From an uncultured bacterium (GTDB taxonomy: Bacteria; Cyanobacteriota; Vampirovibrionia; Gastranaerophilales; Gastranaerophilaceae): DNA of 64,000 bases. Positions within the stretch are counted from its first letter, which is position 1, and each line of letters opens with the position of its first letter. The notes below the pieces were generated by a model. It was not told the DNA's origin. It saw nothing but the letters and a program-made list of their open reading frames with translations, and ran no database searches. The stretch spans positions 1 through 64,000 of the forward strand of contig CACYVN010000001.1 of the NCBI GenBank assembly GCA_902777855.1. Direction: 5' to 3'. This document shows positions 149 to 16,245 of the stretch, in pieces. The translations under genes and the position numbers were made by a program.

Positions 149-1615
149 TTACAATAATTTGAGCAATTCTTTTTCGACTTGGTCAAATACACTTTCCCAA
201 TCACCGTTTTGGGGTTGCCTGAAAAGTTTTAAACTGTCATACCAATCGGATTTTGAAAGGTCATTATGCCAGCGCCAATTATAAACATGTGGTAGCAACA
301 CCCAGCATTGCTTACACATTGCACCCGCAAGATGCGCTAAAGATGTGTCGTTACAAATTATCAAATCCAAATTTTCAACCGCACCCGCAGTCCAAGAAAA
401 ATCTTTAAATGTTGGCGCAAGGTCAATTACATTATATTTATCTTTAATCTTTTCAAATTTTTCAGAGCCCTCAAAAGTCTGACAGGAATAAAATTGAGTG
501 TTTGGGAGTTCAAAAAGTCGAAAAAAATCCTCGACACACAAAATTCTTTCTTTATCATAATATGAATTTCCCTGCCATTTAATCCCGATTTTAAACTTAT
601 CGTTATTAAAATAATTATCCCTGTAAAACTTCACCTTATCAGAATTAGCCTTGATATACCCGTCATCATGATGAATAAACATATCATCTCCTGATTTACC
701 CAAAACATAAGGCAAACTCAAAAACGGCAGGTGATAATCAAAATTCATCTCTTTTTCGTTTATAAACATTCCCATAATCTCTGCGCCGTAAGAATTTTCC
801 TCAAACAACGGTTTTAATTCCTCCTGAGGTTTGAAAATTACTCTTTTGCATTTTGAAATAAGTTCCGGCATAAAACGGTAAATCATAATATTATCGCCAA
901 ATCCTGCTTCATAATAGGTATAAAGAGTTTTATCAGACAAATCTTCTTTACCTGTCCAAATTGGCTTTTGTTTCATCAAATTCGGGTAAGTTTTTTCCTG
1001 TGAAACAATTGCACTCTGTTTACAAAGTCTTTGTTCAAAGCATTTTAAACCGTCTTTGTAATTTTTATCCTGCATATATGCAAGCGAAAGAAAATATGTT
1101 GTTTCCCAGTCGTCCGGATTAATTTCCAAAACCTTTTTATAACACTCTATTGCACCATTTGTATCATTCTCGTTAAAGCAAAGATATGCAAGATTAAAAT
1201 ATGATTCCGTACTTTTGGGGTTGAGTTCTATCGCCTTATAATAAGTTTCTTTAGCCTTGTCATACTGCGCATTATTTTTATAAGCCATGGCAAGATTAAA
1301 GGTATTTTCATAATTGTTTGAATTATTTTTTACTAAAATTTCATAAAGTTCCACGGCATTTTCATAATCTTCTTTCTTGAAATACATTTTTGCAAGATTC
1401 TCTATATAAAACGGTAACGGTTTTATATCAATCGCCTTTTGCAAACATTCAAGGGCTTTATCGTACTGCCCGACCTGAGTATAGAGAATACCAAGTAAAT
1501 CCCAGGTTTCATGATTTTGAGGCTCGTCTTTTATAACCTGCTCATATAAATCTCTTGCCAAAGTAAGCTTTCCCTGATTATGATATTCAAATGCCTGATT
1601 AAATTTACTTTTCAT
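149..1615 (-). CDS. TPR protein with C-terminal glycosyltransferase-like domain
   Basis: 488 residues. The first 190 or so residues are tandem tetratricopeptide repeats with the usual pattern (NPDDWETTYFLSLAYMQ and similar). The C-terminal half (about 210-488) ends with an ICNDTSLAHLAGAM segment near residue 420, which resembles the nucleotide-sugar binding part of GT9/GT41-like glycosyltransferases. Such fusions usually modify proteins or surface glycans; the acceptor here is unknown. It is the last gene of a minus-strand operon, 50 bases after the permease gene, and a hairpin follows it. The fold assignment is from family knowledge and the function is inference. Confidence 0.7.
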   Translation of the reverse strand: MKSKFNQAFEYHNQGKLTLARDLYEQVIKDEPQNHETWDLLGILYTQVGQYDKALECLQKAIDIKPLPFYIENLAKMYFKKEDYENAVELYEILVKNNSNNYENTFNLAMAYKNNAQYDKAKETYYKAIELNPKSTESYFNLAYLCFNENDTNGAIECYKKVLEINPDDWETTYFLSLAYMQDKNYKDGLKCFEQRLCKQSAIVSQEKTYPNLMKQKPIWTGKEDLSDKTLYTYYEAGFGDNIMIYRFMPELISKCKRVIFKPQEELKPLFEENSYGAEIMGMFINEKEMNFDYHLPFLSLPYVLGKSGDDMFIHHDDGYIKANSDKVKFYRDNYFNNDKFKIGIKWQGNSYYDKERILCVEDFFRLFELPNTQFYSCQTFEGSEKFEKIKDKYNVIDLAPTFKDFSWTAGAVENLDLIICNDTSLAHLAGAMCKQCWVLLPHVYNWRWHNDLSKSDWYDSLKLFRQPQNGDWESVFDQVEKELLKLL

Positions 1616-1665: not shown

Positions 1666-2646
1666 TTATATTTTGATACCGAGTAATTCAAAAATTACGT
1701 TTATATTAAACACATTATATTGAAACATTAAACCAAGTATTGTACCGACTAAAACAAGCAGACCAAGAATTATAAAAGTATCTTTTTTATCACCGTTTTT
1801 ACGAAGTAAAACCAAAATACCAAGTCCGCCTGATGTGCATAATCCTGCCACAAGCGAGCCAAAGCTTATTGTATTTTTAACAAATAACATTGTAAGCATA
1901 ACTGATATTGCACAATTCGGAATCAAGCCGACAAGTGACACCAACAAAGGCTGAAGCGGAGAATTCATAAGGCAATATTTTGCAATAACATCCTCAGAAC
2001 CTGCTCTTGAAAGAACAAACGCAAGAACAACTGATATTAAAAATATAAATACAAAAATATTTAATGTATGCTTCAACGGATGTAACCAAAAATCTCTTTT
2101 TCGTGTTGCATGAATAAGATGATGATGGCAGCAACCTTCAATTTCATCTTCATGAACTTTTTCAATTACAGGCTCTTTAGCGTTGTATGTAACAAGCCAA
2201 TCAACTATATATCCGACAACTATCGCAACAGCAATCTTTATCGCAATAATTGGCAGAATTAACGGTGCTTTCTGCGGATAAGTCAATAAAACAGGAATTG
2301 CCTCATCTGAGGTCGCCAGATAAACCGCAACTAATGTACCTCTTGATAAAAGTCTGCGGGTATAAATTGTACTTGCAATGACAGAAAAACCGCATTGAGG
2401 TAAAGATGCAAATAAACAGCCAAACAAAGGCCCTACCTTTTTAATCCAAAAAACAAACAAATGACGCTTTTTGGCGTAATAACGTTCAATAAACTCAATT
2501 AGCAAAAAGATTAAGAACAAAAACGGAATTAAATTCAAACTGTCAATCAAGGCATCTTTTAAAAAATCCGGCAAAAAACTAATCGGTTCAATCAATTCCT
2601 CCGGCATATTCCATATAAAATTCCAAACTTCAGCTAATAAACTCAT
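1666..2646 (-). CDS. Heavy-metal exporter-like permease (ArsP_2 / putative manganese transporter family)
   Basis: 326 residues with about eight hydrophobic segments. The two halves carry matching motifs, LPQCGFSVIAS near residue 80 and IPNCAISVM in the second half, a P-x-C repeat typical of inverted-repeat permeases of the ArsP_2 type. The central cytoplasmic loop holds a CCHHH cluster at about residues 171-176 followed by further histidines, a likely metal-binding site. The gene starts 11 bases after the zinc-ribbon ATPase gene and so is part of the same operon. The substrate (manganese, another metal, or an anion) cannot be read from the sequence. Confidence 0.65.
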   Translation of the reverse strand: MSLLAEVWNFIWNMPEELIEPISFLPDFLKDALIDSLNLIPFLFLIFLLIEFIERYYAKKRHLFVFWIKKVGPLFGCLFASLPQCGFSVIASTIYTRRLLSRGTLVAVYLATSDEAIPVLLTYPQKAPLILPIIAIKIAVAIVVGYIVDWLVTYNAKEPVIEKVHEDEIEGCCHHHLIHATRKRDFWLHPLKHTLNIFVFIFLISVVLAFVLSRAGSEDVIAKYCLMNSPLQPLLVSLVGLIPNCAISVMLTMLFVKNTISFGSLVAGLCTSGGLGILVLLRKNGDKKDTFIILGLLVLVGTILGLMFQYNVFNINVIFELLGIKI

Positions 2647-2657
2647 CCGTAGTTCCT

Positions 2658-5609
2658 TTACAATCTTACACCTTTTTCGGCGCAGAAATCATTTAATTTT
2701 TCTTTTTCAAAATTTATACAGTTTTTAATATACTGGTTTTTCGTTTCCTTAACCACAAATTCCATCGCTTTTTCATACATTACCGCTGAACCACGCAAAT
2801 ATTCTACCTGTTCCTGAGTCGCAATTTTTCCTATATCATAATAATATTTACCGTATAAAAGATATAATCTTGAAAGCAAATCATACATTTTACAATGTTT
2901 TGCAAGTTTTAAACCTTCTTCAATATTTATTTTCGCACTTGTATAATCCGCTATATTCATATATGCAGTTGCAAGCACAAATCTTAAACTTCCGGCAAAG
3001 AAATAGTTATCAATATTAGGATTAATCGAAATTTCTAAAGCCTGAGAAGCAATATCTATCGCACTTTTTGAGTTCTCCGTAACAATTGTGGCATCTGCAA
3101 TAAGGAACCACGACAGCAGAGCTCCGAGAGCCATTTTTTCTTTGGCGAAATATGAAACCTGCTCATTGTATATTTCAAGAGCCTGCTGAGCTTTATTTTC
3201 ATCTTTTAACAATTTCCCCAAAAGCGTTTTAATAATATTTTTGGTGAAATTATCTCCGGAATTATTAGCAAAAGTAACCGTTTCAAATAAATCCTCTCTC
3301 AACCCCTCGTAATCTTTAGTGAAGAATTTATTTATTATATAAACAAGATTTAACCTTGAAACAGAAACTTCATCCATAAAGTTTTCACGATAGCGATTAT
3401 CAACGTCATGTAAAATCTTCATTGATGCATCAATATCACCTTTCATTGTATAAGCATAAGCCTGAACTGTTTTTGCCCTTGCAAGAAGCTGTTTATCATT
3501 GATTTTATGTTTTTCAATAATTTCAAAAAGATTTTTCAGAACATCAAAACTTCGTTCATTACCCTGCAATGCAAGAGCTGTTGCAAGCACAAGATAAACT
3601 TTTAACCATGTATCAAAAAGCAACCCGAGAGGAAACAATTTACTTAATCTTGGTTTTGCAAGATATTTATTCAATATCGGTAAAACATCATTATCAGCAA
3701 GTGAAATCACTTCTCCGCAATTACCTATATCAAGCAATGCAGAAAGTTTTGAGCTGATAATCATTGCTCTTTCAAGCTCCTGTCCGTCTTTAAGTTTTCT
3801 TAAAACATTATCGACACACTCAACATTTCCAAAATAATTACCCGTTTTTGAACAACAAAGCGCAAGATAGCCAAGAAGCTCAATTTCTTTAATTTCGTTA
3901 TTGTGTGCTCTTGCATCCGCTATGGCATCCGGTAAAAATTCAAGAGCTTCCTGAGGATCATATTCGGATAAAAGTTTCCCTAATTTTTCATTTATACTGT
4001 AGCGAATTTTTAATGTTTCGCTTTCATTAAATTCATTCAGCAAAGCAAGACACTGTTTTTGGGCAACTACATAAAGATTTATATCTCCGATATATGAAGC
4101 AAGACGGGTGGTTTTTGTCCAGATATCAAAAGCCATTCTTGTTTCACGCAGATTATGTGCAATCATAGCCATTGTTGCATTTGTATTGAGATTAAACATA
4201 CTGATTGCCCTGCCAATTTTGACATTTATATCATCAAATTCAGAATCTTTTGTTATATTTTTCAGCACGGTTTCCCATAACAAAAGATTATTAAATTCAT
4301 AGTAAATTTCATCAAACTTTCTGACGAAATCAGACATTTCAAGATAATTTAAAATATCTGCAAATTCATGTTCCTCAAATCCAAAGATTTGCCTTACAAG
4401 AGTAACATTAATTTTGTCTCCGAGGATAGCTGAAGCGCAAAGAACTTTATGTGCAATTTTATTTGTTTTCTTTAAGGTTGCAAGTCTTTCTTTTATCAGA
4501 AGCGTAAAATCATCCGGGAGGACAAATGCTTTGTCATTTATCTGACAATCAAATACATAACTGTATGCCTGTTGAATAAATGCAAGATTGCCATGAGCTT
4601 TTTCCAGAATAACTTCTTTTTCTCTTTCGGATACATAACCATTCGAATCACTTTTTAATACAACTTCCGTTGCAAATTCTTCATCTGTCACAGGACGTAA
4701 ATTTATATCGGAAAAAGAATTTAAATTTTTATTTTCTAATCCAAAGAATCCACATATTGGTTTTGGCTCATTATAAACTGCGATAAATTTCAAATTATTC
4801 CAGTTTTTTTCTTTCCTAATCAGATTAGTAAAAAACTCAACACTAAATCCGTCGATAAAATCAAAATTATCAATTATAAAAACAAATTTACCGCTTGAAA
4901 TAAAAGCTTCAAAAACTTTACCCAAAATTGAATATGTGCGCTTTTTATTGATGATTATATCTTCATAATTACCATCATTAAAACTGTATATAAAATTAAT
5001 TAAATCAGATATTTCCGGCGGCTGAAGGAATTTAAATTCCTTGGAGAAAAACGCATTCGCATTTTTTTTAAGTTCAGGATTATCAATACCAAAATTGGGC
5101 AAGCTGAAAATATTAATCAGCATATCCTGCACAACACCCCCGGGAGTTAATTGGGTAAGAGGGGTACACTTTCCTAAACAAATATTTTTATCCTGAATTT
5201 GTTTTAATGCAGAATATAAAACAGATGTTTTCCCAGAACCTTTCTCTCCTGTTATTGAAATCATTTTTTTATTTTTGTCAGAAAGAGCTTTAATTAGAAG
5301 TTCTATTCCCTCTTTAAACGAATAAAGTTCCGGACTATAAACCAGTGTTTCCTTAACGGCTTTAGACTTTTTCTTTTCAGGTTCCCCAAAAGGAGCACCG
5401 CATTTTCTGCACTTAATTGCCGTAGGAAAATTAACCCCGTTACATTTCTTACAGATTTTGAGCAATTCCTGACCGCAATTAGAGCACTTCAACTGACCCA
5501 CCGGATTAACCTGTTTACAACTGGAGCACAGCAACCCCGTTCTTGTTTTACAATACGGGCATTTTAGTGCATCATGCGCTATACTTTTTTTACAGACAGG
5601 ACATTTCAT
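2658..5609 (-). CDS. Triple zinc-ribbon STAND-like ATPase with TPR-like C-terminus
   Basis: 983 residues. Three zinc ribbons sit at the N-terminus at an exact 25-residue period: cysteines 3/6/17/20, 28/31/42/45 and 53/56/67/70, each C-x2-C-x10-C-x2-C. A P-loop ATPase follows, with Walker A GEKGSGKT at 121-128 and Walker B FVFIIDNFD at 242-250, as in AAA_16/STAND-type regulators. The remaining 500 or so residues are helical and look like divergent TPRs. There is no catalytic or DNA-binding domain at the C-terminus. It lies 8 bases after the sigma-factor gene. A signalling or scaffold role in that operon is inference. Confidence 0.7.
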   Translation of the reverse strand: MKCPVCKKSIAHDALKCPYCKTRTGLLCSSCKQVNPVGQLKCSNCGQELLKICKKCNGVNFPTAIKCRKCGAPFGEPEKKKSKAVKETLVYSPELYSFKEGIELLIKALSDKNKKMISITGEKGSGKTSVLYSALKQIQDKNICLGKCTPLTQLTPGGVVQDMLINIFSLPNFGIDNPELKKNANAFFSKEFKFLQPPEISDLINFIYSFNDGNYEDIIINKKRTYSILGKVFEAFISSGKFVFIIDNFDFIDGFSVEFFTNLIRKEKNWNNLKFIAVYNEPKPICGFFGLENKNLNSFSDINLRPVTDEEFATEVVLKSDSNGYVSEREKEVILEKAHGNLAFIQQAYSYVFDCQINDKAFVLPDDFTLLIKERLATLKKTNKIAHKVLCASAILGDKINVTLVRQIFGFEEHEFADILNYLEMSDFVRKFDEIYYEFNNLLLWETVLKNITKDSEFDDINVKIGRAISMFNLNTNATMAMIAHNLRETRMAFDIWTKTTRLASYIGDINLYVVAQKQCLALLNEFNESETLKIRYSINEKLGKLLSEYDPQEALEFLPDAIADARAHNNEIKEIELLGYLALCCSKTGNYFGNVECVDNVLRKLKDGQELERAMIISSKLSALLDIGNCGEVISLADNDVLPILNKYLAKPRLSKLFPLGLLFDTWLKVYLVLATALALQGNERSFDVLKNLFEIIEKHKINDKQLLARAKTVQAYAYTMKGDIDASMKILHDVDNRYRENFMDEVSVSRLNLVYIINKFFTKDYEGLREDLFETVTFANNSGDNFTKNIIKTLLGKLLKDENKAQQALEIYNEQVSYFAKEKMALGALLSWFLIADATIVTENSKSAIDIASQALEISINPNIDNYFFAGSLRFVLATAYMNIADYTSAKINIEEGLKLAKHCKMYDLLSRLYLLYGKYYYDIGKIATQEQVEYLRGSAVMYEKAMEFVVKETKNQYIKNCINFEKEKLNDFCAEKGVRL

Positions 5610-5617
5610 AATAACAC

Positions 5618-6235
5618 TTACTGTTCATCAAGAACATTTTTTACTCTCTCAATCAAACCATAAATCCTTTTTGACACCTCAGACTGAGAAATACCAAGTT
5701 CTTCAGCCATTTGTTTTTGAGTCAGGCATTTATCATAACGAAGAATAAATATATCCATAAATCTTTTATCAGGTTCCGCTTCATTAATTTTTTCAAGAGT
5801 ATCTGCAATAAAATTAACAACTTCGTTATGAATTGCATTATCTTCAGGATCCAAAGGAATTTTAACACTTTCATAGCCCGGGGCAAAAGAAGAATAATCA
5901 AACAACGAAAAAGGTTCTTCAGTTGGTGCAGGTGTTAAATTTTCCGTAGGAACAACAGACTCGATAGGAACTTCTGTTGTTGTCATATATCCGGATTTTG
6001 ACCGCCTTAAGCGACCGGAATCTTTTAATACGCTTATAATTGAAGTCGTTACGACTTTCCTCAAATATGCTTCTAATGTCGCAGGATTTTCGATTGAACC
6101 GATAATTGCAGCAGAACGACGACATGTTTCATTCAAAAAATCATCAAATAAATCTTCATTATTTGAAAATTTTTTGTCATTCTTAATAATTTTCGATATT
6201 AAATCTATCTTCTCCTGTGTAATTTCCACAAACAT
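5618..6235 (-). CDS. Sigma-70-like RNA polymerase sigma factor
   Basis: 205 residues. The N-terminal 75 residues resemble a short region 2 (helical, with LRKVVTTSIISVLK). A low-complexity proline/glutamate linker follows, and then a clear region 4 helix-turn-helix at about 155-205 with FILRYDKCLTQKQMAEELGISQ and SEVSKRIYGLIERV. The length suits a group 4/ECF-like factor. The region 2 match is weak, so a plain HTH regulator is the alternative. It lies between the DUF1822-like membrane protein (29 bases upstream) and the zinc-ribbon ATPase (8 bases downstream), which suggests these three work together. Confidence 0.65.
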   Translation of the reverse strand: MFVEITQEKIDLISKIIKNDKKFSNNEDLFDDFLNETCRRSAAIIGSIENPATLEAYLRKVVTTSIISVLKDSGRLRRSKSGYMTTTEVPIESVVPTENLTPAPTEEPFSLFDYSSFAPGYESVKIPLDPEDNAIHNEVVNFIADTLEKINEAEPDKRFMDIFILRYDKCLTQKQMAEELGISQSEVSKRIYGLIERVKNVLDEQ

Positions 6236-6264
6236 ATCCCTTCGTCATGGAAATTATAGCATAT

Positions 6265-9200
6265 TTACAAATAAATTTTAAGTATTACGGTTGTGCTTTG
6301 GTCATTACCCAGACTATTTGGGGCTTTTAGCACTTTAAGAGTTTGGTTAACAGATTGTAACACAATATTATCTACCTGAGCTGAGCCGCTTGATAATAAT
6401 ATTTTTGCTCTCTGGAAAGATCCGTCATTCCCGTACAAAATACTAACTCGTATTTGATCGGAATAAGTATAATCCGTAGCAAGCAATAAATCACTTGACA
6501 ATGCGGCTTTCAAACTTTTACCTGCAGATTGGAAGTACTGTTTGAAACTAATATCAGTTGATATATAATCAGGAACCTCCCAACTTAGCTTTCTTACAGA
6601 CAAGAATGAAGTTGCAGGAATAGGTTTTGATGCCGGAGTTACAGAACCTTGTGACGGCACAGGATTTACCTGACCGCTGTTCACGCCTTGTAAATTATTA
6701 TTTTGGGCACTCTGCTGAGGGACCGAACCCTGAGTTTGATTATTATTCATTACTACTCCGCTGTTATTATCAGGATTCATATTCGGAACATCATCTCCAA
6801 GATTATTATTATTTTGGAGGGTATTATCAGCTACCAGCGGTTCTGCTTCGTTGTTAGACGGATTCATAAATTTTGATACCGACAACATAATTATACCTGC
6901 AATAATTAATACAAATGCAACCCCGCCTATACCTAAAACAACAGGAATAAGTTTACCCTTTTCATTTGACGTCCCTGCACTGCTATTCAAAACACTTTCT
7001 TCGGAAATTATATTGTTATTATTACTATAGAGTTCTTCCAAATGTTCATTTGTATCTGAAATATCAACTCTTGAAGGATCTTTATTTATATCAATAAATA
7101 TTTCACCCGGTGTATGATTTTTATCACTTATGACAAAAGAATTTTCCTTTACAGCATTCGCATTTAGCAAATCATCCATTTCATAACTGTCACTAAAATA
7201 ATCAATCTCACTGTTGTCATCTACCGGCGCAATTGTTTCGAAATTGGCAAAATCTTCTATATCTGCGAAGCTTACCTCCGCATTATATGGGGCAGCTGTA
7301 GGAGAATCCGTTAAATCAGAGAAATTAACGAGTTCATAGTCTCCCGCATCGGGCTGCTGTTCGACATGTTCTGTAGGAAGTTCTTCAAAATCATGAGTAT
7401 TCTCAGAATTAATATCCTGAGAGTCATTTTCAGGCGGCACAAATACCGGAAGCTCCATGCCCGTATCCGCAACTGCAATATCATCCAATACACTTTCCGA
7501 CTCAGCATTTATTAATTCTGATGAATCAGTTTTATCTTTTGCAAAAATCAAATCATCATCCCCGCCATCAATATCACTTTCGGAAGGAACGGAAAATTCG
7601 CCATCCCAAGAATTATTGTCAAGATCAAATGTATTACTGTTATTTGTTTCGGAAAAATCTTCCAAAGCCTCAGAGTTGCTCGAAAGACCTGAGTCTGATT
7701 GCTCATCATTTATAACACTCAAATCTTCCAAATCGGCATCAGGTAAAACATCTTCATTATCTGAATCGTTACCTTCATTAACTGCATCATTTTCAATTGA
7801 TAAGTCATCAGAAACAAGTGTATTCTCAGACTCAATTTTAATTTCCTGTTCCTGTTCATTTTCGACCGGTTCTTCTGTTATTACAAAATCTTCCGTATCT
7901 TCGGAGGAAGATAAATCATCTGAATCCCCGAAATCAAAATCCCCTGCAGAATTATCATCAAAAATATCCGATAATTCCTCATTGGTTGCATCAAAAGATT
8001 CTCCTATATCCAAAGAATCAGAAAATTCAGCATTACTGCTTTCCTCATCATTTGAAACCTGCTCTGAAGGAGAATCAGATTCCTCAAAATTAAATTCTTC
8101 TGTTTCTTCCTGGGCGATATCGAAATTCGCATCATCTTGTTCCGGCTGTAGATCTTTTGGCTCATCATTATCAGCCTCCGTCAGAGATATATCTTCCAAA
8201 TCTTCAAGATTTAAATCATCCTCATGAGACAAATCAATACTCAAATTTTCATCATTGACAGATAAAGTATCCTCATTTACCGATTCTTCTGCAATTCCCT
8301 GGGTCTCATTCAGCTCAGAATCCCCTCCGGTATAATTATCCGTATCTTTGGCTTCTTCTGTTTCCGTCGATTCTTCAGTTAATAAGTTGTCAAAATCATC
8401 AATATTAATTTCATTCTCAAAATCTCCGAAATCTAACTCTTCTTCTTTTAATTCAAAATTAGTTTCTTCATCAATAGAATCTACCGTTTCGGCTGTCTCA
8501 TCCTGAGCATTTTCTTCATTTTGGGATTCCTCATCTGCAGGCTCGGGGTCCGAACAGGTTTCTGTTTCTGTTTCCTGCTCTTTTATTTCATCTTCTGAAG
8601 ATTCTTCAACAACATCTTCATTGTCTTCTGCAAAAATTTCCGTCTCATTGCCATCCTGTGTCTCAGGGATATCAATATTTTCAAACTCTTCTTCCACGGC
8701 AAGACTACCTTCTGACAGGTCTATTTGAGGGAAATCTTGTAAATCTTCATCAAAAACATCCGGTTCATTATCGTCTGATATAATTTCATCTGCCACATTT
8801 TCTTCATTTTCGATTTCTTCGTCCTGTAAAATTTCATCTGAAGAATCATCTGTATCAATTTTTATTTCTGCTTCAATTTCATTTTCATCGTTATTTTTAT
8901 CCGAGTTATTTACATCCACAATTTCAGAAGCTTCATCTTCGGTGTTATCCTCAGATATTTCGGATTCAATACTGTCGGTTGTATCATTAAAATATTCTTC
9001 TGTTCCTGAGGATAAATCTTCTTTTTCTGAATCAGCTAAATCGCTTTCCGATGTTGAGACCTTTTGCGCAGAAGAATCTGTTATATTTTCTATTCCGTTT
9101 TCAAATAATTCTTCGGTTTCATCTGATACAATTTCACCTGCTACAGCAGCCAAATCCATAGCTTCCTGTGATACAGCCTGAGCGCCTGCTATATTGGCGG

Positions 9201-10137
9201 CGCCAATAGCTCCGGCTACTCCGGCAGCTGCACCTGCGACTCCCGGAGCAATATTTTGTACCCCGTCAACCATATCATCTAACAAATCATCTCCGTTTAA
9301 ATCCTGAACTTCATTCTGAGTGATATCAGAAGACTCAAGTTCTGCCTCTGAATCCTCCGCTGTTTGCTCGGCAGAATCAGACATATTAATAAAATCATCA
9401 AAATCAACTACTTCATTTTCTGATTGATTCTTTGACTTAGAAACTTTCAATGCCATTGCAACCTTTGAAGCAAGAGTTTCAAAATTGTCATACTCAAGAA
9501 CAGAATTTCTCAAAGCACTACTCTTTGACAGGAGATTAACAAACTCATTAAATTCTTCATCAGTAACATCATGATCCGCAACAGAAACAGAAAGTTCTCT
9601 GCCTTTTAAAATCTGTGCATCACTCAAATTCCCGTCAGTTTTACCTTTGAAATTGCATATAAAATCAAACATATCAAAAGGAGAATGCAATTTTTCTGGA
9701 TCCATAAAATAATATTCCGAATTTGAACTGTTCAGATCAAGTTCTGAAGGTTCGAAATATCCTATGAAAATTATTCGCTGAAAACTTTTATCAAACTTTA
9801 AGACCGCATAAATATCAGGTACAATCCCCATTGCATAGTGAGATTTAGGTACAAATATTTCATTTTCGTTAAATACGACTCTTACATCAATATGGATATT
9901 GTCCAAAATAATATCTGCAATATCAACTTTTTCAACAATTCGCTTGATTGAGTGGATACTTGAAATTCCTTCCACATCAAGACCTAACTTACCCAAATAT
10001 GATATTACGGCCTCAGAGCCTATAACATTGAAAAATACCCTGTTTTGCACTGACACATTTATAAAATTTGAAGACATAAACTGTGCTTCAGATAAATTAT
10101 CACTTGTAATTTCTAATAATTCGGTTTCAAAACTCAT
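6265..10137 (-). CDS. Giant acidic single-pass membrane protein with DUF1822-like head
   Basis: 1290 residues. Residues 1-235 form a folded domain whose EIFVPKSHY, DIYAVLKF, IIFIGYFEPSEL and YYFMDPEKL run in the same order as in cyanobacterial DUF1822 proteins. Residues 240-1050 are extremely rich in Asp, Glu, Ser and Asn, with a Gly/Ala-rich hydrophobic patch near 300. One transmembrane helix lies at about 1062-1088 (PVVLGIGGVAFVLIIAGIIM). An Asn/Gln/Pro linker leads to a C-terminal domain of about 110 residues resembling TonB C-terminal/energy-transducer folds. First gene of the operon. The likely topology is acidic region inside and the C-terminal domain in the periplasm. Function unknown. 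Confidence 0.65.
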   Translation of the reverse strand: MSFETELLEITSDNLSEAQFMSSNFINVSVQNRVFFNVIGSEAVISYLGKLGLDVEGISSIHSIKRIVEKVDIADIILDNIHIDVRVVFNENEIFVPKSHYAMGIVPDIYAVLKFDKSFQRIIFIGYFEPSELDLNSSNSEYYFMDPEKLHSPFDMFDFICNFKGKTDGNLSDAQILKGRELSVSVADHDVTDEEFNEFVNLLSKSSALRNSVLEYDNFETLASKVAMALKVSKSKNQSENEVVDFDDFINMSDSAEQTAEDSEAELESSDITQNEVQDLNGDDLLDDMVDGVQNIAPGVAGAAAGVAGAIGAANIAGAQAVSQEAMDLAAVAGEIVSDETEELFENGIENITDSSAQKVSTSESDLADSEKEDLSSGTEEYFNDTTDSIESEISEDNTEDEASEIVDVNNSDKNNDENEIEAEIKIDTDDSSDEILQDEEIENEENVADEIISDDNEPDVFDEDLQDFPQIDLSEGSLAVEEEFENIDIPETQDGNETEIFAEDNEDVVEESSEDEIKEQETETETCSDPEPADEESQNEENAQDETAETVDSIDEETNFELKEEELDFGDFENEINIDDFDNLLTEESTETEEAKDTDNYTGGDSELNETQGIAEESVNEDTLSVNDENLSIDLSHEDDLNLEDLEDISLTEADNDEPKDLQPEQDDANFDIAQEETEEFNFEESDSPSEQVSNDEESSNAEFSDSLDIGESFDATNEELSDIFDDNSAGDFDFGDSDDLSSSEDTEDFVITEEPVENEQEQEIKIESENTLVSDDLSIENDAVNEGNDSDNEDVLPDADLEDLSVINDEQSDSGLSSNSEALEDFSETNNSNTFDLDNNSWDGEFSVPSESDIDGGDDDLIFAKDKTDSSELINAESESVLDDIAVADTGMELPVFVPPENDSQDINSENTHDFEELPTEHVEQQPDAGDYELVNFSDLTDSPTAAPYNAEVSFADIEDFANFETIAPVDDNSEIDYFSDSYEMDDLLNANAVKENSFVISDKNHTPGEIFIDINKDPSRVDISDTNEHLEELYSNNNNIISEESVLNSSAGTSNEKGKLIPVVLGIGGVAFVLIIAGIIMLSVSKFMNPSNNEAEPLVADNTLQNNNNLGDDVPNMNPDNNSGVVMNNNQTQGSVPQQSAQNNNLQGVNSGQVNPVPSQGSVTPASKPIPATSFLSVRKLSWEVPDYISTDISFKQYFQSAGKSLKAALSSDLLLATDYTYSDQIRVSILYGNDGSFQRAKILLSSGSAQVDNIVLQSVNQTLKVLKAPNSLGNDQSTTVILKIYL

Positions 10138-10305
10138 GCTTTCTCTCCCCCTCTACATACATAGATGACACTTATAAAAAAAATATTCCAAATATTTTGT
10201 AAATTTTTGTAAAGATATTAGTAAAAGATTAAATATTTTGTCAAAATTGACTTGTTAATTGTTTTTATATTTCTGTGAAGTAAATGTGTTTAAGGAGGTT
10301 TTCTC

Positions 10306-10722
10306 ATGTCTTTATCTGTAGGTCCCGTATCAAATTTAAGCTTTCGTGCCCAAGAAGCTACACCTCAAAATGTAGAAGATATATTAAGCCGCCCCGGTGC
10401 TTTTGCAAAGCCTGAGGTCCCGGTAACTCAACCGGTAAAGAAAAATAATCATACATTTTTAAAAGTATTGGCAGGAACATTAATTGCCGCTGGTATAATT
10501 GCAGGCGGATTGCACTACTTACCTAAAAAATTTCCTGATGTATTTAAAATAACTGAAAATATAGGTCAGATTAAAGATTTTATGCCAAAACTTAAAGCCT
10601 ATGTTACAACAGGAATAGCAAAAGGCGGAGAATATGTTGATGCCGGTGCCGGCGCAATTGCCGAATATGCAACAAAAGGATGGGAAGCCTTAAAAGGTCT
10701 TTTTAAAAGCAAAAATGCATAA
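10306..10722 (+). CDS. Small single-pass membrane protein, unknown function
   Basis: 138 residues with an excellent ribosome site (aaggagg, 8 bases before ATG). The N-terminus is short and polar with the motif SNLSFRAQE (residues 9-17). One hydrophobic helix lies at about 50-68 (FLKVLAGTLIAAGIIAGGLHY) and an amphipathic Gly/Ala-rich tail follows. I recognise no family. The N-terminal SFR motif resembles the ISFG of the small protein at 13379. It is divergent from the acidic-protein operon, and a clear terminator follows, so it is monocistronic. Confidence 0.6.
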   Translation: MSLSVGPVSNLSFRAQEATPQNVEDILSRPGAFAKPEVPVTQPVKKNNHTFLKVLAGTLIAAGIIAGGLHYLPKKFPDVFKITENIGQIKDFMPKLKAYVTTGIAKGGEYVDAGAGAIAEYATKGWEALKGLFKSKNA

Positions 10723-10860: not shown

Positions 10861-12648
10861 ATGAGTTATACGGTACCCTATTCATTTGTACCTGGGACAA
10901 AAGCCCGGGCTCAGGAAGTAAATGCAAACTTTGCAGCAATAAATGATTCTTTTGAACTGATTGACGAAAATAAAGTTAATCTTGACTTATCCAACATTAC
11001 TTCCGCAGGGTTGGACGTTATTAAAAATAATTCATCCGTAAGAAATATCGGAGAACTTATTTTTTCCCCGATTCCGCTTACGGATTGCAATTTACATCTC
11101 CTTGACGGGAGCTTAATTCCGGGGAACGGGATATATCACGATTTTGTCAATTATATAAAAAACATATATAATACAAATTCGAGATATAATTCTGATGTTT
11201 TTGCAGTAACCGGAAATCCGATAATTAGTAATGACGGAGTTGCGAGCGATTTCAGTTTAAGCAATTATTTAACAATATCTCCAAATATTGACTTATCGGA
11301 TTTTTCTATTACTTGGGTATTTGACCTGAATGCATTACCGAATACGGGAGACAATCTGACAATTGCGCAATTTACAGGTTCAGGTTCAGAATACAGAAAC
11401 AGGCTCACATATTATCGCGACAGTCTGAGTATTGGATTTTCTTTACTGTTACAGGACGGAACAAGTACATCAACCGCTTTGGTTGTTCCGGTATCAGGGC
11501 TTGGAAAATACGAAGCAAACCTTAGTTTTAACGGCTCAAAATACATATTTACTCTTATTGCTCCGGACAATTCCGCTCAAACAACAGAATTTAACAGCAA
11601 TTCACAATTAGATGTGACATCAACAAATCTGTACTTAGGGAGGGGAATTGCAAGTCAAGGTTATTTTAGTAACGGCTCTATTGACCTTAAAGAACTTTTG
11701 ATAAAGAAAGGGCAGGTAACAATATTCAGCGGTAAGAATATCTGCAATTACTTTACTAACGAAAATACCTGGCAAAGTACAGTCTCCGCATACGGAGAAT
11801 GTGGCAAATTCGTATACAATTCAAGCGCAAATTCGGTAAGACTTCCTAAAATAAACGGTCTGATAGAATTCAGCACAAATATTACAGAAACCGGAAATAT
11901 AACGGAAGCAGGTCTGCCTAATATTACCGGATGGCAAAATTCTGTCAGACGAGACGGAGATACAAATTCTTCCGGAGCATTACGTTCTTATTGGACAAGA
12001 ACTGGTGTTTCAAGCGGTACAGGGGGCGGGCAGGCTGCAAATATTGAATTCAACGCAAGCTGGTCTGACGAAATTTACGGCAAGTCAAATACAGTTCAAC
12101 CGCAAACGGTAAAATATCTTATTTATATTGTAGTTTCAAGCACGCCTAAAACTAATATACAAATAGATATAGATAATATTGTAAGCGATTTAAACGGAAA
12201 ACTTAATGCTGATTTTACAAATATTCAGGGTTCAAATATTAAAAACTTTGATGGGCAGTGGGTATATTCAAATACCGAAATTCTGTCAAATGTAACAGCA
12301 AGCGGAGCAACAGGTTATCAATACGATTTAGGCTCATACTTACCGCATGACGGAAACAAATATGAAGTTATTTTTTCGTTATGGGGACAGACCGGTTCTT
12401 CATCAGGAAACGGTTTCTACGTTTGGGCAGGTACGGATATAATCGGTCCCGGTACGAGCAGTGATAACGGAAAAATTCAGGTAGCAAGAACAAGAACAGT
12501 AAGTTCAATGTCACAATATGGCGGAGGTAGTTTTACGCTTCCGGTAGGAACCGGGAGGAAATTATATCTTTACTTTACGAATTCGGATTCAACAAGCGGA
12601 ATTTATCTGAAAGCACTGTGTTACAGACGTATAGGAACAAACAGTTAA
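10861..12648 (+). CDS. Phage-type tail fibre with LamG-like domain
   Basis: 595 residues. The N-terminus VPGTKARAQEVNANFAAI is the standard start of phage tail fibres and collar proteins. Residues 115-290 look like a concanavalin/LamG beta-sandwich (IDLSDFSITWVF ... LYLGRGI). About 320-435 resembles a tail-collar region ending IYGKSNTVQPQTVKYLIYIVV, a common tail-fibre tip sequence. The last 110 residues (YDLGSYLPHDG ... YRRIGTNS) form a beta-rich receptor-binding-like end. It is followed by its presumed assembly partner 9 bases downstream. No head, baseplate or lysis genes are near, so this is either a prophage remnant or a domesticated module. Confidence 0.8.
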   Translation: MSYTVPYSFVPGTKARAQEVNANFAAINDSFELIDENKVNLDLSNITSAGLDVIKNNSSVRNIGELIFSPIPLTDCNLHLLDGSLIPGNGIYHDFVNYIKNIYNTNSRYNSDVFAVTGNPIISNDGVASDFSLSNYLTISPNIDLSDFSITWVFDLNALPNTGDNLTIAQFTGSGSEYRNRLTYYRDSLSIGFSLLLQDGTSTSTALVVPVSGLGKYEANLSFNGSKYIFTLIAPDNSAQTTEFNSNSQLDVTSTNLYLGRGIASQGYFSNGSIDLKELLIKKGQVTIFSGKNICNYFTNENTWQSTVSAYGECGKFVYNSSANSVRLPKINGLIEFSTNITETGNITEAGLPNITGWQNSVRRDGDTNSSGALRSYWTRTGVSSGTGGGQAANIEFNASWSDEIYGKSNTVQPQTVKYLIYIVVSSTPKTNIQIDIDNIVSDLNGKLNADFTNIQGSNIKNFDGQWVYSNTEILSNVTASGATGYQYDLGSYLPHDGNKYEVIFSLWGQTGSSSGNGFYVWAGTDIIGPGTSSDNGKIQVARTRTVSSMSQYGGGSFTLPVGTGRKLYLYFTNSDSTSGIYLKALCYRRIGTNS

Positions 12649-15536: not shown

Positions 15537-15572
15537 TTATAATAAAACCCGTAATAATAAAATTTGCTAAGG
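15537..15572 (-). promoter_or_regulatory. Promoter-like block, second copy
   Basis: The minus strand reads tagcaaattttattattacgg then gttttattata, nearly the same as the block at 14753-14788. It lies directly upstream of the JAMM-like gene and back-to-back with the toxin-antitoxin promoter. Confidence 0.4.
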
Positions 15573-15573
15573 G

Positions 15574-15603
15574 TTGACATATTGTGGTCTTTAGACTACA
15601 ATA
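15574..15603 (+). promoter_or_regulatory. Toxin-antitoxin promoter with palindromic operator
   Basis: Consensus -35 ttgaca (15574-15579), a 17-base spacer and -10 tacaat (15597-15602). An inverted repeat, tattgtggtc / gactacaata (15580-15589 and 15594-15603, 9 of 10 matched), fills the spacer and covers the -10, as expected for an autorepressing antitoxin. The predicted start of transcription coincides with the toxin ATG at 15609. Confidence 0.8.
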
Positions 15604-15608
15604 TTAAT

Positions 15609-15929
15609 ATGAAAGAAATTTTGACTTATAAAACTGAAGATGGCAAATGTCCTTTTGATATTTGGATGAATAGTCTTGATAATTCAATGAAAGTTCGAGT
15701 GTCAAAAAGGATTGAAAGAGTCGAAGAAGGCAATTTTGGTGATTATAAAAAGTTAGATAACGATATATCAGAATTGCGTTTAAAATTTGGCTCAGGCTAT
15801 AGAATTTATTATACAGAAATCGATAATATCATAATAATTCTTTTGTGTGGTGGTGATAAATCAACCCAAGTAAAAGATATAGAAAAAGCAAAAGAATATT
15901 TACAAGATTTAAAAGAAAGGAATAAATAA
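15609..15929 (+). CDS. RelE/HigB-type toxin (addiction module killer family)
   Basis: 106 residues from ATG 15609 (MKEILTYKTEDGKCPFDIW). The CPFDIWMNSL start, the middle ELRLKFGSGYRIYYTE and the IILLCGGDKSTQVKDIEKA end are the hallmarks of the HigB/RelE-ParE 'addiction module killer' proteins, which act as mRNA interferases. The antitoxin gene follows by 1 base. No ribosome site is visible, and the promoter places the transcript start on the ATG, so the mRNA may be leaderless. The longer frame from 15564 would overlap the promoter and is unlikely. Confidence 0.88.
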   Translation: MKEILTYKTEDGKCPFDIWMNSLDNSMKVRVSKRIERVEEGNFGDYKKLDNDISELRLKFGSGYRIYYTEIDNIIIILLCGGDKSTQVKDIEKAKEYLQDLKERNK

Positions 15930-15930
15930 A

Positions 15931-16245
15931 ATGAATATAGATAAATTAAGGGAAAATACAATTCCTTATAATGAACTTGAAAAGAAATATATGGAAGATT
16001 ATGAATATCAAAAAGAATATTTAAATCTTTCACTGGAAGAATATATTACAGACGGTGATTTCAATAAGTTTTATAAATCATTAGAAAAAGTAATTAAATC
16101 AAGGGAAAGTATTTCATCATTTGCAAAAAAAGTTAATATTGACCGCTCAAATCTTTATACTTTGTTTAATGGAGAAAAAGTTCCAAGGTTGGATACTATT
16201 GCAAAAATTTTAAAAGAATTAGGTTATACAATTAAAGTTGCATAA
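15931..16245 (+). CDS. HTH antitoxin of the HigA-like addiction module
   Basis: 104 residues. The N-terminal 60 residues bind the toxin in this family (LSLEEYITDGDFNKFYKSLEKVI). The C-terminal 45 residues are a Cro/C1-type helix-turn-helix (SISSFAKKVNIDRSNLYTLF then GEKVPRLDTIAKILKELG). It is downstream of its toxin, the order usual for this subfamily. It probably represses the pair through the palindrome at 15580-15603. Confidence 0.88.
   Translation: MNIDKLRENTIPYNELEKKYMEDYEYQKEYLNLSLEEYITDGDFNKFYKSLEKVIKSRESISSFAKKVNIDRSNLYTLFNGEKVPRLDTIAKILKELGYTIKVA

Follow-up and report, generated by a model that had tools for sequence, protein, structure and literature searches.

In a 64,000-nucleotide window of DNA from an uncultured bacterium of the family Gastranaerophilaceae (assembly GCA_902777855.1, contig CACYVN010000001.1, positions 1 to 64,000), an operon of three genes on the minus strand encodes, in this order, a giant membrane-anchored putative anti-sigma factor (G1, 1290 amino acids, 6265..10137), an extracytoplasmic function (ECF)-type sigma factor (G2, 205 amino acids, 5618..6235) and a zinc-ribbon P-loop NTPase with a probable helical-repeat C-terminus (G3, 983 amino acids, 2658..5609). 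Domain composition, a fold match, a conserved promoter and conserved gene linkage suggest, at a probability of roughly three in four, that this unit is an autoregulated sigma/anti-sigma switch in which the head of G1 would inactivate G2. The host is a gut-dwelling, non-photosynthetic relative of cyanobacteria, in which the operon most likely serves as a stress switch. Its genome comprises 1.94 Mb in 31 contigs, and near relatives of the sigma gene come from rumen and other metagenome-assembled genomes, several of them labelled Candidatus Gastranaerophilales. The initial annotation of this DNA had noted three closely spaced genes and proposed that the membrane protein and the ATPase control the sigma factor; the open reading frames (ORFs), their strands and the gaps of 29 and 8 bases are as it described, and its core proposal is strengthened and made specific: a probably autoregulated ECF sigma factor is paired with an unusually built giant anti-sigma factor in the membrane.

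G2, previously described as sigma-70-like, passes the ECF family model TIGR02937 (64.2 bits against a cut-off of 42.9, E 1e-17) and the Pfam cut-off for Sigma70_r4; a sigma2 match was not found by Pfam. Furthermore, the G2 profile aligns over both domains with SigW, taken from the SigW-RsiW complex (residues 39-175, E 2.8e-4).

The head of G1 begins with a DUF1822 domain (residues 8-159, 9661..10116), as had been surmised from its sequence. When the head fragment is scanned apart from the acidic linker that follows it, PF08852 matches over its cut-off (27.6 bits against 25, E 2e-6), with the match spanning profile positions 1-159 of 370, and a search of the genome itself with the Pfam DUF1822 model likewise returns the G1 head over the cut-off; full-length Pfam and NCBIfam scans of G1 do not list DUF1822, which the fragment scan recovered. 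Among the aligned ortholog heads, 51 of 52 match DUF1822 at E values up to 0.05.

Directly behind DUF1822, residues 173-235 of G1 (9433..9621) correspond to a predicted class I anti-sigma domain. In 11 orthologs from other families of the order, the zinc-binding motif Hx3Cx2C, e.g., LFIPFIDGTITEDDSNYLLEHISGCPEC, occurs at one fixed place behind DUF1822, and its columns fall on residues 202, 206 and 209 of G1, where the window protein itself carries L, S and L; nine of the aligned members are recognized by Pfam zf-HC2 (best E 3.6e-6). In a comparison with VIA-align, the model of the G1 head superimposes on RsiW from the SigW-RsiW complex through residues 175-235 (Z 7.0, root-mean-square deviation 1.9, 58 aligned residues) and on MucA through residues 174-227 (Z 6.9, with a further MucA value of 6.3), and these two proteins rank highest among the helical matches, with the proviso that Z scores of 7-8 can arise by chance and that, with a helical bundle, a Z near 7 does not by itself prove a relation. 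In a profile search of PDB sequences, H30, C34 and C37 of RsiW align with residues 202, 206 and 209 of the window protein at a single offset of 172. The motif is not a defining feature of class I, because only about 56% of its members carry Hx3Cx2C and about 44% of class I anti-sigma domains are without it (PMC7406223). That G1 is, in all likelihood, a membrane-bound class I anti-sigma factor cognate to G2 is a claim carried by the way in which motif, profile, fold, position and gene linkage agree, and the proposal that the membrane protein controls the sigma factor gains backing from the domain behind DUF1822.

The remainder of G1 consists of an acidic linker (6952..9432), probably disordered as judged from its composition, a single transmembrane helix predicted from hydropathy (6877..6951) and present at the same place in nearly all orthologs, and a predicted periplasmic TonB-C-like domain (6268..6597). 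The orthologs of the same genus have one predicted transmembrane helix about 200-230 residues before the C-terminus and an Asp plus Glu content of 20-26%, with a second hydrophobic stretch in one ortholog (L037). TonB_2 matches the tail behind the helix in 21 of the 26 aligned ortholog tails (best E 6e-8). The topology of G1 would be N-in, with the head in the cytosol. The earlier characterization of G1 as an acidic single-pass protein is borne out; the TonB-C-like domain after the transmembrane helix and the anti-sigma domain directly behind DUF1822 were absent from it.

Conservation of the unit was traced in the window's family (f1) and in six other sampled families of the order (f2 to f7). 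G1, the sigma factor and the NTPase are kept in 20 loci of the same genus, with the NTPase truncated or fragmented in two of them (L039 and L046), whereas beyond the operon the downstream gene content varies or is on the opposite strand. In the family, the NTPase lies directly behind the sigma factor in 48 of 48 genomes sampled, and 38 of the 40 listed DUF1822 matches lie upstream of the sigma gene on the same strand, the other two being on a different contig. The pair of G1 and the sigma factor recurs in five of the six other families (f2, f3, f4, f5 and f7), and outside f1 the NTPase adjoins the pair only in f5 (L051) and in one f7 locus (L067). The conserved linkage proposed at the outset therefore holds within the family, and not every family of the order has the unit in its three-gene form. 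It is conceivable, and to our mind very unlikely, that the three genes are co-transcribed and otherwise separate in function, with the sigma factor free or controlled elsewhere, G1 a structural, envelope-spanning protein of the TonB/TolA kind and G3 an unrelated NTPase. Such a separation would fit the facts that f6 has sigma homologs without G1 (L056-L058, not treated here as G1-sigma units) and that TonB-like domains are often parts of energy-transducing machines; against it, the pairing of G1 and the sigma factor persists in five other families while the neighbors change, DUF1822 genes of cyanobacteria independently adjoin sigma genes, and the anti-sigma motif is present in orthologs of G1.

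Upstream of G1 lies an ECF-type promoter of the form GGAAT-N19-TCT (GGAATATTTTTTTTATAAGTGTCATCT, 10163..10189, minus strand), a shape that compares with that of the Escherichia coli sigmaE promoter. It is found at identical spacing upstream of G1 in 29 loci from families f1, f2, f4 and f5, across which GGAATA and TCT are invariant; the loci without a match are all those of f3 and f7 and two of f1. The strict form occurs in 14 of 97 genomes of the same family, once in each (control 0), and wherever its coordinates are known (10 cases) it lies ahead of G1. With the spacing relaxed to 18-20, a match precedes seven of 449 other ORFs. Since the conserved upstream site has the form of an ECF promoter, the operon is probably autoregulated by G2. 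A first reading of the promoter, GGAAT-N15-GTCATC, was replaced by the present one after the other families had been aligned. Just upstream of the -35 region, a conserved element, TTTACAAAAATTTACA, consists of two TTACA units ten bases apart (10198..10213, minus strand); it was identified in the upstream alignment of f1, is conserved in most f1 loci and was not seen in f2, f4 or f5, and it is a candidate for an UP element or the site of a second regulator. A candidate housekeeping promoter, TTGACA-N18-TAATAT (10215..10244, minus strand), comes from a consensus scan only; sites of this type are no more numerous than in shuffled sequences, and its TTTTGAC portion is for the most part conserved across the aligned upstream regions.

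With respect to G3, the double zinc ribbon model DZR is passed over its cut-off by the N-terminal ribbons, which have six CxxC motifs (5385..5609), as do those of the orthologs. In the Pfam scan, AAA_16 and AAA_22 match at E values of about 5e-5, below the curated cut-offs, nSTAND_NTPase5 at 0.029, and the tetratricopeptide repeats (TPRs) are marginal. The earlier description of G3 as a zinc-ribbon STAND-like ATPase with TPRs is thus upheld as regards the zinc ribbon, with the ATPase match below the cut-off and the repeats marginal. We consider it quite unlikely that the actual regulator is G3, as a STAND NTPase with a direct activating effect on the sigma factor or the promoter (for instance at TTTACAAAAATTTACA), and that G1 provides a membrane tether. 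The constancy of G3 behind the sigma gene in the family, its presence in single members of f5 and f7 and the conservation of the upstream element in f1 would agree with such a role; however, G3 is missing behind the sigma gene in f2, f3 and f4 despite the presence of the G1-sigma pair, no helix-turn-helix (HTH) domain was found in G3 by the Pfam scan, and the upstream element does not show up in f2, f4 or f5, even though G3 is present in f5.

Several observations weigh against the interpretation of the unit as an autoregulated sigma/anti-sigma switch. The zinc ligands are lost in G1 of the window's family, such that in this family the anti-sigma domain is supported by orthology, fold and position; the domain lies behind another domain and not at the usual N-terminal place; and helix 4 of class I, which binds sigma2, was not identified in the head model, which ended at residue 235. 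The alignment from which the AlphaFold model was computed contained the zinc-type orthologs, and plain Foldseek returned no match to the model with E < 0.001. In a profile search of all PDB sequences, RsiW came first in the anti-sigma segment, but weakly (E 0.058); the same search also lists 3hug_B over this segment, which we take to be the anti-sigma factor RslA. In the window protein, the TonB_2 match stays below the cut-off (E 0.0014). Recognition of the promoter by G2 is deduced from its form and position, and the search for a second target gene gave no convincing candidate, whereas a stress regulator would be expected to have one. Regulon searches of the genome with GGAAT-N14-16-GTCATC (four matches, control 0) and with GGAAT-N13-15-TGNNNTCT (nine matches, control 4) gave no convincing intergenic site beyond that of the operon, so that the wider regulon envisaged in the initial annotation was not recovered by the promoter searches, which yielded only the operon's own promoter.

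A different function for the head of G1 could be argued from the fold of DUF1822. In the AlphaFold model of residues 1-235, a confident one (predicted local distance difference test score 92.9), the best VIA-align rows for residues 26-165 are dominated by PD-(D/E)XK-type proteins, namely Hjc (Z 8.3) and SPARDA (Z 8.2), with further rows for D212, DpnI, NhoI, NaeI and EcoRV, and at these borderline Z scores the domain appears to resemble the PD-(D/E)XK nuclease fold. Across the order, and likewise in the majority of short DUF1822 proteins from cyanobacteria, three residues (D75, D/E84 and R86) hardly vary and form a D...(D/E)xR motif in place of (D/E)xK. Kaur et al. have, moreover, placed genes for an ECF sigma factor and a DUF1822 protein beside caspase-type conflict systems (EACC2-caspase; PMC8195603). 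One could, therefore, suppose that G1 controls the sigma factor mainly as an effector or activator platform in which DUF1822 is an active or nucleic-acid-binding PD-(D/E)XK domain and the helical segment a mere spacer, which would make the unit a defense or DNA-damage module and not a switch for envelope stress. We hold this to be unlikely: the catalytic lysine is replaced by arginine throughout (D/E84-x-R86) and the longer cyanobacterial DUF1822 proteins are without the motif; the unit belongs to the core in all 48 genomes of the family sampled, unlike accessory defense islands; and in orthologs the zf-HC2 motif lies within the helical segment. Because of the loss of the catalytic lysine, a non-catalytic role of DUF1822 is the more likely one.

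Returning to the sigma/anti-sigma switch, G1 would be a single-pass inner-membrane protein whose cytosolic head joins DUF1822, of predicted PD-(D/E)XK-like fold, to a class I anti-sigma domain, and the latter would bind and inactivate G2, keeping the sigma factor at the membrane. The long acidic linker would lead to the transmembrane helix and to the periplasmic TonB-C-like domain, which would probably sense the state of the envelope. A signal picked up by the TonB-C-like domain in the periplasm, or by DUF1822 or G3 in the cytosol, would free the sigma factor, which could then transcribe its own operon from GGAAT-N19-TCT. The freed sigma factor would thereby boost every gene of the operon, that of its inhibitor among them, which would make the response self-limiting. 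As for the nature of the signal and the release step, which might be regulated proteolysis or a conformational change, and for the role of G3, perhaps a cytosolic sensor or co-regulator, we can offer only guesses.

In the window, the operon is followed on the minus strand by a gene for an ArsP_2-like (arsenic-efflux-like) permease (1666..2646; NF037962, E 1.6e-70), which starts 11 bases behind G3 and is probably co-transcribed with the operon here, though it lies outside the conserved unit: in other species of the genus it is absent or on the opposite strand. Next to it, a TPR protein, identified from sequence and the Pfam scan (149..1615, minus strand), is also outside the unit; permease and TPR protein often travel as a pair, and elsewhere in the genus they are found behind G3, on the opposite strand or not at all. 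On the other side, two divergent genes that adjoin the operon (10306-10722 and 10861-12648, plus strand) are kept in the genus; they encode a small protein with one transmembrane helix and a fiber-like protein whose N-terminus is conserved and whose length and C-terminus vary strongly; a gene for a protein of 120-170 amino acids comes next. Further on, 15564-15929 and 15931-16245 (plus strand) appear by eye to be a HigB/RelE-type toxin gene and a HigA-like HTH antitoxin gene. Elsewhere in the order, a metal-dependent-hydrolase-like gene and another two conserved genes lie behind the sigma homolog of f6 (L056-L058); in f3 (L061-L069) a secreted protein of about 180-195 amino acids replaces the NTPase behind the sigma factor, and in several f3 loci a radical-SAM-like protein (CNIQCNFCNRxYDC) is also found there.

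In oxygenic cyanobacteria, DUF1822 and sigma genes are associated as well. The profile of the heads from the order finds cyanobacterial DUF1822 proteins, down to E 4e-13. The 5' neighbors of the cyanobacterial DUF1822 genes match a sigma-70 model in at least 16 of 31 cases, the 3' neighbors encode CHAT in 19 of 23, often with CHASE2 (12 of 23), and 15 of the 18 listed matches to the sigma profile adjoin DUF1822, as counted by eye. The statement in the initial annotation that cyanobacterial DUF1822 genes often sit near sigma-like genes was, therefore, right, and the association is partly published (PMC8195603); there, DUF1822 is called a TPR protein, whereas the models of the G1 head and of one cyanobacterial DUF1822 protein do not show TPRs. 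The latter model has no anti-sigma helices and has instead a C-terminal beta sandwich, for which Ig-like matches filled the list (best Z 7.6). In cyanobacterial DUF1822 proteins (L101-L134), a near-invariant stretch, WLxxxxxxxWQxxExL, lies between two domains and is a candidate for binding the sigma factor or CHAT.

The present findings provide a first testable role for DUF1822, whose function is unknown and of which cyanobacteria often have multiple copies, and for a giant protein that almost all genomes of the sampled gut-bacterial family retain. GGAAT-N19-TCT offers a ready reporter promoter for finding the signal. Furthermore, should the operon indeed be linked to the cyanobacterial clusters of sigma factor, DUF1822 and CHAT, a single module of sigma control would have been re-engineered between the photosynthetic and the gut lineages, and a likely target would emerge for the caspase-like CHAT proteins.

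Among known systems, the closest parallels to the unit are SigW-RsiW of Bacillus subtilis and AlgU-MucA of Pseudomonas, in which an ECF sigma factor is likewise encoded beside a protein with one transmembrane helix, a cytosolic anti-sigma domain and an extracytoplasmic part, behind an ECF-type promoter of their own operon; these systems supply the closest helical fold matches, and the Hx3Cx2C of the G1 orthologs falls on the ligand positions of RsiW. In contrast to them, G1 has DUF1822 ahead of the predicted anti-sigma domain and a linker of several hundred residues before a predicted periplasmic TonB-C-like domain, the anti-sigma gene comes first and the zinc-ribbon NTPase third, and the window's family has lost the zinc ligands. 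Cell-surface signaling of the FecR/PupR type also employs anti-sigma factors with one transmembrane helix and a periplasmic domain linked to TonB systems; here, the TonB-C-like domain is predicted in G1 itself, and no receptor gene was recognized next to the operon.

The cyanobacterial clusters share with the operon a DUF1822 gene that adjoins a sigma-70 gene, but their DUF1822 protein is soluble, with about 300-500 amino acids, and their third gene encodes CHAT, often with CHASE2, where the operon of the window has the zinc-ribbon NTPase. In type III-E CRISPR systems, a CHAT protease frees a sigma factor from its inhibitor (PMC10028731). The Csx30/CASP-sigma/Csx29 arrangement resembles the present one in that an ECF-like sigma factor is held by a partner encoded next to it, which for G1 is only proposed, and in that a CHAT protein is also present in the cyanobacterial relatives; the operon of the window is without CRISPR genes or a CHAT protease. 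No match of DUF1822 to Csx30 was seen in the PDB sequence search, which is not evidence against a relation. We tentatively raise, as a rather doubtful idea, that DUF1822 might be a phylum-wide sigma partner with a degenerate nuclease fold: in oxygenic cyanobacteria, CHASE2-CHAT would act on DUF1822 such that the ECF sigma factor is freed, a CRISPR-free parallel of Csx29, Csx30 and CASP-sigma, while in the gut relatives the pair would have been rewired into a membrane anti-sigma system, with the zinc-ribbon NTPase replacing the protease.

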